From the NCBI GenBank assembly GCA_951828385.1, contig OX639973.1, positions 434,001-498,000 on the forward strand: 64,000 bases of DNA, in the 5' to 3' direction. The notes beneath the pieces are model-generated. The model had not been told where the DNA came from and ran no database searches. It was given only the letters and a program-made list of their open reading frames with translations. The first letter of the stretch is position 1, and each line of letters starts with the position of its first letter. A program made the position numbers and the translations under genes. This DNA comes from an uncultured Poribacteria bacterium (GTDB lineage: Bacteria; Poribacteria; WGA-4E; WGA-3G). Positions 16,512 through 19,674 of the stretch are shown piece after piece.

Positions 16512-17949
16512 ATGCGGATATACCCCAAATGGGTCCATCCAAAGAAAATGATAACACATTTTTCAGAAGTTTTCAAGGATGTTGATGTCAAAGGGTGTGT
16601 AAATATTTTGGCAGCGTTCCCTTATAGAGGCGGTTTTACCCCGATTGATACCTCGCCACCCCACATAGCACTCCGCTGGAGTGCAGCTACGGACGATATT
16701 GGTTTCTATAGATATATCACGCCTCCGGCGTGAAGAAGTCTTTATCTTTAAAGATACCTCTTTGCTCCAGCGGAGCAATATATCTATAGAAAAAGATTCT
16801 CACCTGCTCTTGCACTCCAGCGGAGTGCTATGTAAACAAACCTGTCCTATCAAAAAATTAAGGAAACCGTGACAAAAACTTTACACACCCGATGTCAAAA
16901 AAACGAGCCTGCGAAATCTACTGTTCGTTATCTTGGCAGTCGCTGTTGCGAAAACGTTTCGCATCAACGCCATCGCCGCGCGTCTGCCGATCGTCGTGAA
17001 AAAAGAGAAGTCGAAACAAAAACGGTTGCTTCGGTTCCTTGAAACACCTTTACCCCTTGATGCGCTGATGGAGGCGTGGTGTCTTTTCGTCTGTCGCTGG
17101 GTCTGGACAAGGACACAACATTACTTCTATGTGCTCATTGATGAGACCGACCTCCCTAACGGTTGGAAAGCACTCGTGGCATCTATCCCGTTTAGAAACC
17201 GTGCTATACCTATCTTTTGGTTAGTTTATGAAGATCAAGAGATCCGAAACATGACCTATAAAAGTCATAATACTCTCATTCAGGACTTCTGTCTGAAAGT
17301 CAATGATCTGACACTCAGTGTTCTCGGAACTCAAAAACAGAAACCCTTGTTCGTCTTTGATCGAGGGTTCGCACGCGCACAATACGTCATTGGCTTTCTC
17401 AGGTCAAAGCACATCGCCTTCGTCATGCGTATCTGTCGCAACGTCGGTATCACCCACCAAGGCAACACAAAGAAACTTGATGACACGGACACCGGCGGCT
17501 ATTCAAACGTCCTTTATCATCAAAAACACCAGATACCGCTCAACCTTTATGTCTACAGAGACCCGACTTTCAAAGAACCTATGTATCTCATCTCAAATGT
17601 CTATCAAGACGCTGAAATCCTTCACTGCTACAAACGCAGAATGCAGATCGAACACGGATTCAGAGACATCAAAACGCGCTTCGGATTCCGACATATCGTT
17701 TTGAAAAAAACCGAGAAAGCACGCATCGCACTTTTATGGTTCATTGCCTGTCTAACTTATGGACTCACCTTTCTCTGTTATGAGAAAGCCATACAACCCG
17801 TCGCAGCGCATCGCAATACGAAACGCAAACTTCATGCTGTTATTACTCTGATTAAGGATGTTTTGACGCAGACTTGGACTTCTCAAGCACTTCTGACTTC
17901 TCTTGAAGACTGTCGATGCAGAGGCGACACATGCTTAGCAACCTATTGA
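16512..17949 (+). pseudogene. IS4-family transposase gene split by a MITE
   Basis: The N-terminal part starts at ATG 16512 after GGAGG and reads MITHFSEVFKDVDVK up to 16592. The frame resumes at 16900 as KTSLRNLLFVILAVAVAKTF and runs to 17949. Removing the 298-bp insert and one copy of its 9-bp duplication restores a single frame of about 380 residues. DDE residues are visible in LIDETDLP, FVFDRGFA and the IS4 YREK signature YKRRMQIEHGFRDIK. The gene is therefore inactive unless the insert is excised. An internal start at about 16933 would give only a truncated protein. Confidence 0.82.
16593..16890. mobile_element. 298-bp MITE inside the IS4 transposase
   Basis: The ends are the 11-bp inverted repeats GGGTGTGTAAA and TTTACACACCC, flanked by the 9-bp duplication GATGTCAAA (16584-16592 and 16891-16899). 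The inside is packed with short palindromes such as GCACTCCGCTGGAGTGC, TCACGCCTCCGGCGTGA and GCACTCCAGCGGAGTGC. It encodes nothing recognisable. The 9-bp duplication and end sequence differ from those of the host element, so a different transposase moved it. Confidence 0.85.
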
Positions 17950-18027: not shown

Positions 18028-18196
18028 AAAAGATGCATGAAAACAGGGTATGTGATATACTAAATTATTGAACTTATTTACGGTGGGTTGAACAATTGAT
18101 ACACCATTCACCTACATTTCGGTTTGGAAGCCTAAGTCTTTAGACTTGGGAGGAAAAACCGCCTGAGTGCATTAGACCCAACGGTTGAAAAAAGAT

Positions 18197-18225
18197 TTGA
18201 CACTGGATTAAAAAAGTAGTATAAT
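18197..18225 (+). promoter_or_regulatory. Consensus promoter of the tnpB transcript
   Basis: TTGACA at 18197-18202 and TATAAT at 18220-18225 match the sigma70 consensus at all 12 positions, with 17 nt between them. The predicted start at about 18232 is the first base of the structured leader. Confidence 0.8.
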
Positions 18226-18230
18226 GAGAG

Positions 18231-18310
18231 TATCAGGTTGGCAAGTCTAACAAGCGTAACCGCAAGGTTGCGGACTTGCCTCCCACTTGTTAGGGGATAA
18301 AATCCTGATA
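18231..18310 (+). ncRNA. Structured, possibly pseudoknotted 5' leader of tnpB
   Basis: Complementary pairs nest and cross in this 80-nt leader. TATCAGG (18231-18237) pairs with CCTGATA (18304-18310). GGCAAGTC (18240-18247) pairs with GACTTGCC (18273-18280). CGTAACC and GGTTGCG form a hairpin with a GCAA tetraloop (18255-18272). TAACAAG (18248-18254) can pair with CTTGTTA (18286-18292), crossing the second helix to give a pseudoknot. The tnpB ATG is 12 nt downstream. The function is unknown; control of tnpB or a guide-type RNA are options. Confidence 0.5.
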
Positions 18311-18321
18311 CCTGATCATCC

Positions 18322-19632
18322 ATGAATATAACTTTTAGGTGCCCTGTGTATCCGACACAAACACAGGAACAAACATTATTACGGTGGTTAGACCACCTTT
18401 GTGAACTTCAGAACTCTGCTCGCCATGATCGCAAGGTTGCGTGGGAGACTGAAGGTGAACGGGTGTCTTGCTACGCTCAGCAACAGAAGTTGACAGTGGC
18501 TCGTAAAAAATATGCCGACTTCCGTGAAGTGCCCCAAGATATGCAAGTGTGTATTTTGGAACGCACGGACAAAGCTTACGACGGTTTCTATAGCCGGTGC
18601 GAAGCCGGTGCTGCGAAAAAAGGCTATCCAAGACACCATAAACGGATTAGGTCTATGTCGTGGAAACTTCGCAAATATCCGAAAGTTGTTCAGCGAAAGA
18701 CAAAAGACAGAGAGAAAAAAGTTGTAAAAGTTCGCCAGACGCCTATCCGTGAAACAGCATGGAAACACGACCGACTCAAAGTGCCGGGTTTAGGTGAAGT
18801 CAAGATATACATGCCCCGCCCGTTAGAAGGCGATCCGAAAGAAGTGTCGCTGGTAAAAAAAGCGAGTGGCTGGTATGCTCATATCTCCTGTGAACTGCCC
18901 GATACACCGAAAGTTGAACCGACCCATGCGATTGCTGTTGATGTAGGCACAACGCACTATCTCACAACTTCCGATGGTGAAAAAGAGGACAACCCGCGCT
19001 GGTATCGCCAAGCAGAAGGTCTGACCCAGAAACACTCTAAAGACCTGTCTCGTAAGAAAAAAGGTAGCCACCGTAGAAAGAAACAACAACACAAACTCGC
19101 TTTACACCACGAGCGAACAGTCAATAAACGCCAAGACTTTATCGGCAAACTCGTCTATAAACTCTACCACCACGAGAAAAACAATGTATTAGTGGCAGAG
19201 AACTTACGCGTATCTAACATGGTAAAGAACCAACACCTCAGTAAGAGTATCAGCGATGTATCTTGGGCAACCTTCTTTAAGTGGTGTGGAGACATGGTTT
19301 CCGAAAGAGACGGTTTCCACTTCCACAAAGTTGACCCCAAGCATACCTCGCAAACATGTTCTTCCTGTGGTCAGAAGTCGCCAAAGAAACTTTCGTTGGC
19401 GATACGCACTTTTGGATGTCAGTTTTGTGGCACGGTTTTAGACCGAGACCACAACGCTGCGATAAACATACTTCTTAGGGCAGCTGCTGCCCTTCGTGGA
19501 GAGCGGTGGGTTACCACCCTCGAAGAAACGAGAAACAAGAACGAAGCACGAGACAAAGGCTTTCAGAACGCAACACAGTTAACGTTGTTTGACGCTCTTA
19601 ACAAGCCCAAGTCTTTAGGCTTGGGTAGTTGA
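18322..19632 (+). CDS. tnpB: TnpB RNA-guided nuclease (IS605 OrfB family)
   Basis: This 436-residue protein has the full TnpB layout. An N-terminal helix-turn region (MNITFRCPVYPTQTQEQTLL) is followed by the RuvC catalytic residues: Asp in IAVDVGTTHYLTTSDG, Glu in VLVAENLRVSNMVK, and Asp in LDRDHNAAINIL. A zinc finger lies between the last two (CSSCGQ and CQFCG). TnpB cleaves DNA guided by an RNA from the right end of the element and promotes retention of the transposon. The last codons (KSLGLGS) are encoded by the right-end hairpin itself. No tnpA is present. Confidence 0.9.
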   Translation: MNITFRCPVYPTQTQEQTLLRWLDHLCELQNSARHDRKVAWETEGERVSCYAQQQKLTVARKKYADFREVPQDMQVCILERTDKAYDGFYSRCEAGAAKKGYPRHHKRIRSMSWKLRKYPKVVQRKTKDREKKVVKVRQTPIRETAWKHDRLKVPGLGEVKIYMPRPLEGDPKEVSLVKKASGWYAHISCELPDTPKVEPTHAIAVDVGTTHYLTTSDGEKEDNPRWYRQAEGLTQKHSKDLSRKKKGSHRRKKQQHKLALHHERTVNKRQDFIGKLVYKLYHHEKNNVLVAENLRVSNMVKNQHLSKSISDVSWATFFKWCGDMVSERDGFHFHKVDPKHTSQTCSSCGQKSPKKLSLAIRTFGCQFCGTVLDRDHNAAINILLRAAAALRGERWVTTLEETRNKNEARDKGFQNATQLTLFDALNKPKSLGLGS

Positions 19633-19674
19633 CCATAGTTCAGAGAAGCCTACGTAATTTGGAGGAAATGGAAT

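Follow-up and report, generated by a model that had tools for sequence, protein, structure and literature searches.

An orphan tnpB gene of an uncultured Poribacteria bacterium is preceded by a consensus promoter and a compact, pseudoknotted leader RNA, and the same fold precedes hundreds of other genes in sponge-associated Poribacteria. Judged from its sequence, the leader is likely a mobile promoter-plus-RNA cassette for control in cis. Translation is the simplest target, and a 5′ helix with two registers the likely switch. The window analysed here, 64,000 nucleotides in length, belongs to a 6.66-Mb genome in a single contig, whose leader-bearing close relatives are Candidatus Poribacteria.

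The tnpB gene (18322–19632; all features given here lie on the + strand) encodes a 436-aa protein with OrfB_IS605 and Cas12f1-like_TNB domains (Pfam, 2.1e-17 each). It sits in a 1527-bp element at 18107–19633, delimited by the ends of similarity to two 96–97% identical copies elsewhere in the genome. No tnpA lies within these borders, which bears out an earlier note on this DNA that had called the gene an orphan; in its TnpB domains, matching end hairpins and missing tnpA, the element is a tnpB-only IS200/IS605-like element. The imperfect hairpin at the left end (CGGTTT..CCTAAGTC TTTA GACTTGGG..AAACCG; 18120–18161), read from the sequence, stands 5′ of the promoter and shares its core with the right-end hairpin (CCCAAGTC TTTA GGCTTGGG; 19606–19625), which was placed by sequence and by the two-copy comparison. 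The right-end hairpin is the usual site of TnpB guide RNA 3′ ends. Viewed by eye, the outer stem of the left-end hairpin shows compensated variation among copies (CGGTTT/AAACCG, CGGGCA/TGCCCG and CGGTGTC/GACACCG), and reads CGGACT/AGTCCG at locus L228. A DDE_Tnp_1 transposase gene (16933–17949) lies just 5′ of the element.

Upstream of tnpB, a −35 hexamer TTGACA (18197–18202) and a −10 hexamer TATAAT (18220–18225), separated by a 17-nt spacer, match the sigma-70-type consensus at 12 of 12 positions; the consensus promoter reported earlier is therefore real, and it is the only perfect site found. The structured leader RNA spans 92 nt (18230–18321) and ends at the tnpB start codon, as delimited by its fold, its match to a covariance model and covariation. 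Folded from 18230, it reaches −37.6 kcal/mol (z = −4.6), with none of 200 shuffles as good, and covariance model R1 matches it with an E-value of 1.3e-25, a rough figure given that our models were short-calibrated.

The leader adopts a three-way junction with a 7-bp bulge-to-loop pseudoknot. H1 (18230–18237/18304–18311) closes the junction of two arms, one formed by H2 and H4 with a 7-nt bulge between them, the other by H5, whose loop pairs with the bulge to form H3. The 5′ strand of H1, GUAUCAGG (18230–18237), carries the heptamer UAUCAGG and lies at or adjoining the predicted transcription start, according to pairing, covariation and −10 phasing. The H2 arm (GGCAAGUC/GACUUGCC; 18240–18280, with strands at 18240–18247/18273–18280) encloses the bulge strand and H4, and 99–100% of its cells in the alignment are paired. 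The bulge provides the 5′ strand of H3, UAACAAG (18248–18254; 97.3% of cells paired), and H4 is a hairpin, CGUAACC GCAA GGUUGCG (18255–18272, with strands at 18255–18261/18266–18272), in which 99.5% of cells are paired and all 7 pairs change on both sides. These helices, H1 to H4, are the four complementary pairs that had been noticed before, and the crossing pair among them is H3 (18248–18254/18286–18292). A fifth helix had been missed: H5 (UCCC/GGGA; 18281–18297, with strands at 18281–18284/18294–18297), which covaries in three sets of leaders and holds the 3′ strand of H3, CUUGUUA (18286–18292), in its loop. The GNRA cap described for one hairpin is present here as the GCAA loop of H4 but is not a family-wide trait, as GCUU, ACUU and UCUC loops occur too.

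Covariation had been named as the check on these helices, and compensatory changes were found in all three sets of leaders. Across 12 leaders of the window genome, 95.6% of cells are paired, with double changes at 21 of 34 pairs. The set from other Poribacteria comprises 80 distinct leaders, with 95.4% of cells paired; its alignment was fitted to a model containing H1, H2, H4 and H5 but not H3, which tilts the result towards the included helices. In this set 25 of 34 pairs show double changes (17.8 in shuffles), comprising 433 double-change cells against 134.5 in shuffles, and sliding the alignment by one column destroys the signal; leaders recombine within and between genomes, so that such sequence counts are not independent events. 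Each of the four inner H3 pairs is changed on both sides in 39–50 of the 80 sequences. A second sequence class (class II; 95 distinct leaders) has double changes at 20 of 27 pairs, in 129 cells against 45.6 in shuffles. The 84 sequences were retrieved with a DNA pattern in which portions of H2, H5 and the H3 flanks are fixed, so that only freely varying positions count as evidence, among them the whole of H1 and H4 and the four inner pairs of H3. G-U cells outnumber A-C cells by 99 to 28 overall, and by 59 to 2 in H4; selection therefore acts on the RNA of the sense strand. The structure is thus conserved by compensatory changes, as in cis-regulatory leaders. Divergent variants (L330, L336 and L340) keep the same architecture at 39–51 identical positions of 90–95. 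In another family of the order (L330, L332, L322 and L317, the last in G067), the architecture is likewise kept while the sequence and the tandem repeat differ.

The 5′-terminal heptamer is complementary to two tandem heptamers, the second of which stops 4 nt short of the AUG, and covariation extends to all three strands. By complementarity and covariation, heptamer 1 (CCUGAUA; 18304–18310) is the partner of the 5′ heptamer in register a, and heptamer 2 (CCUGAUC; 18311–18317) its alternative partner in register b. In 72 of 80 leaders the two segments that best match the 5′ heptamer lie exactly 7 nt apart, and in 72 of 80 both 3′ heptamers match it at 6/7 positions or better, across 12 different core sequences. 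Register b has 92.6% of its cells paired and 81 double changes (21.6 in shuffles), a signal that collapses with a one-column slide, and 93 of 95 class II leaders hold two non-overlapping copies of their own motif. The two 3′ heptamers hardly differ from each other, so the registers are almost equal in cost: with the pseudoknot ignored in the energies, the modelled difference averages +1.5 kcal/mol (sd 3.3, n = 69). The −10 hexamer ends 4–5 nt 5′ of the leader in 72 of 79 relatives, so the transcript start is expected at the 5′ heptamer. As in riboswitches, there is an alternative pairing that includes the start region; what the covariation shows is conserved complementarity in register b, not switching itself, and this register could be a side effect of repeat duplication that recombination between copies maintains. 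The three-strand design would make for a simple and directly testable switch.

Like other cis-regulatory leaders, the RNA lies between promoter and start codon. Most leaders have the start codon directly after heptamer 2 and 4 further nucleotides, and before the genes of one family of small membrane proteins (M family) it lies off this usual distance. A Shine–Dalgarno-like tetramer at −20 to −4 occurs in 0 of 65 class I (tnpB-type) leaders and in 15 of 60 class II leaders; as a yardstick, it occurs at the first ATG of 20 of 33 window ORFs, taken with unverified starts, and at 12% of all window ATGs.

We favour, with some reserve, a translational control RNA that acts in cis and whose 5′ end would alternate between the two heptamers as pairing partners. 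The earlier suggestion that the structure may control tnpB translation gains ground, at the level of sequence, from the covariation, the position between promoter and AUG, the missing Shine–Dalgarno motif and the asymmetry of G-U over A-C. The cassette's own strong promoter would transcribe the leader, and the leader would set the translation level of the next gene. H2, H4, H5 and the pseudoknot H3 would form a compact core, which the 5′ heptamer would close through heptamer 1, or leave by shifting one heptamer along to heptamer 2, itself in the usual Shine–Dalgarno place 4 nt 5′ of the AUG. The equilibrium could be shifted by any factor acting in favour of the core, be it a ligand, a protein, the ribosome or a second RNA, and the start site could thereby become accessible or masked. 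We infer the action on translation, the role of the registers as on and off states, and the existence of a sensed signal.

The main rival to this account holds that the leader is an mRNA stabiliser or insulator, with a 5′ fold that shields the transcript from 5′ attack and permits even, low, Shine–Dalgarno-free translation with no switching. A 5′ end inside a helix, a very stable fold and the lack of ligand evidence all suit such a role, but it leaves unexplained why a second heptamer, at constant spacing from the AUG, should covary with the 5′ end, and we consider it rather unlikely.

The genes downstream are diverse. Class I leaders are mostly found 5′ of tnpB, including genes whose TnpBs share only 27–34% identity. 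Others precede the M family genes (L227–L235), for which Pfam gave no clear family; the M family gene is followed by MvaI/BcnI and methylase genes at L161, and by a methylase-HNH gene at L195. Further class I leaders stand 5′ of a GIY-YIG/NUMOD3 gene (L321) and, on a viral contig, 5′ of a gene matching an intron-like endonuclease family (L248). That 54-kb viral contig carries two leaders, L247 and L248, one of them 5′ of tnpB.

Among class II downstream ORFs, 35 encode a small N family (L352–L434) with a signal peptide, a coiled coil and a membrane segment recognised by eye. No single Pfam domain covers this family, which gives scattered weak matches to coiled-coil and septum-type models; DivIC is matched in 6 of 35 (best 7.6e-06), probably through coiled-coil similarity. 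Thirteen of the 51 other class II ORFs are N6/N4 DNA methylases, and D12 methylase, BglII, DpnII, MvaI/BcnI, HNH, SNF2/ResIII and AbiTii have one or two matches each. In a control set of 111 ORFs on Poribacteria contigs, the methylase family does not appear among the 25 commonest, so that at most about one is expected. Assuming one control methylase, the enrichment gives a Fisher p of ~1e-6, although at least 6 of the 13 methylases form one orthologous family and the independent number is smaller. About 13 further ORFs make up an O family of small proteins (L376, L400, L418 and L430–L432 among them), Pfam-scanned only inside a mixed ORF set. SNF2/helicase-type genes follow the leaders at L382, L377, L429 and L435, two scanned members matching SNF2-rel_dom and ResIII, and these loci are possibly further defence operons.

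Taken more broadly, and tentatively, one RNA switch that moves from gene to gene with its promoter might control a Poribacteria regulon of genes that cut or modify DNA, namely solo TnpBs, homing-type nucleases, restriction-modification systems and AbiTii, together with small membrane proteins, sensing a common signal such as infection or stress by the shift of heptamer register. The leader would in this way link selfish RNA-guided nucleases to host defence genes via an apparent shared control.

This spread of genes also bears on the proposal, made before, that the RNA is a second guide scaffold, or else a TnpB-bound decoy for autoregulation by TnpB and its guide RNA. The leader shares with TnpB omega RNA (reRNA) the tie of a structured RNA to tnpB, and most class I leaders do stand 5′ of that gene. 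TnpB omega RNA overlaps the tnpB 3′ end and the right end of the element. The window-type leader, in contrast, lies 5′ of the gene and is not restricted to tnpB, since the same RNA precedes methylase, restriction enzyme, AbiTii, GIY-YIG/NUMOD3 and membrane-protein genes, as well as TnpBs of such low identity. A guide would not be expected after it, and the element has a 3′ end of the ordinary kind. HEARO/IscB omega RNA resembles it in lying 5′ of the gene in an IS200/IS605-like element, but the comparison suggested by the earlier note went against kinship: RF02033 does not match the leader, and its one 15-bit match, to the right end of the element on the other strand, is at chance level (E 2.6). 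A scaffold or decoy role is therefore very improbable.

In the window genome, nearly all tnpB genes without tnpA carry the leader and tnpA-coupled ones are without it, an association for which a Fisher test on 38 leader-bearing tnpB genes or fragments, counted by hand, serves as a guide only. Of 12 leaderless tnpB loci re-examined by ORF reading, 11 have a tnpA or remnants of one (serine or Y1 type), while L256 shows neither a tnpA nor a remnant. Unlike the tnpA-coupled copies in the same genome, the window element has its own promoter and leader, which raises the question of tnpB expression without a tnpA partner. The conserved structure might act as single-stranded DNA in transposition, being inside the element and near the left-end hairpin, but the sense-strand bias of G-U over A-C, the occurrence of leaders upstream of chromosomal-type genes with no visible element ends, and the leaderless tnpA-coupled copies make this a far-fetched reading. 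An array of DNA-binding repressor sites, made up of an inverted heptamer and two direct ones located at the start site and the start codon, would suit the heptamer at the predicted start site, but is hardly credible given 12 different cores that are all compensated, as expected of pairing and not of a protein site, and a remaining fold that covaries too.

Model R1 has 41 matches in the window genome and matches 49 of 85 genomes of the phylum, with 38 of 38 in the genus and 0 of 12 outside the order; it has no match in a small sample of 14 genomes from other phyla. Model R2, for class II, matches 52 of the 85 genomes, all of one family, and has 10 matches in the window genome. A pattern scan of GTDB contigs returned Poribacteria only, among the matches listed, apart from L158 (Mediterraneibacter), which we rejected as a chance match (16.6 bits, E 0.046). 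Among the matches listed and the genomes scanned, the RNA family is thus found only in Poribacteria, mostly in one family. The structured RNA 5′ of tnpB, once regarded as unusual, is real but no isolated oddity, as its 41 R1 copies attest.

Rfam 15 gave no match over the window at the gathering threshold; at relaxed thresholds the best hit to the leader was Afu_190 (E 0.48; 19 against 35 bits), with nothing credible there or in scans of the other leader loci. A literature search through listings rather than full texts, in which subscription journals are scarcely covered, returned no account of a leader of this type. In topology and helix order, HDV-, twister- and pistol-like ribozymes and THF-like riboswitches do not fit, and Rfam gave no match to them. 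Some genomes carry dozens of copies, and the leaders together make up a large RNA family for which we found no counterpart in Rfam or the literature. In translational riboswitches and structured leaders (such as THF, preQ1 and ribosomal protein leaders), a junction or pseudoknot core stands directly before the start codon. Our leader resembles them in having its core directly 5′ of the start codon and competing pairings that include the start region. It differs from them in that its alternative pairing partner is a tandem copy of the 3′ strand, that nucleases, methylases and small membrane proteins rather than a metabolic pathway lie downstream, and that Rfam gives no match.

Two kinds of insertion recur within the leaders. 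The H4 loop of L035, L037, L038, L046, L049, L053, L169, L194 and L197 holds a G+C-rich hairpin cassette of 26–29 nt, near-identical across leaders of different elements and species, as if swapped between copies. GGAAACC or its complement GGTTTCC is a recurrent insertion in one helix arm, in H2 and the junction of L034, L042, L011, L020, L052, L138, L147 and L157, where pairing is sometimes broken.
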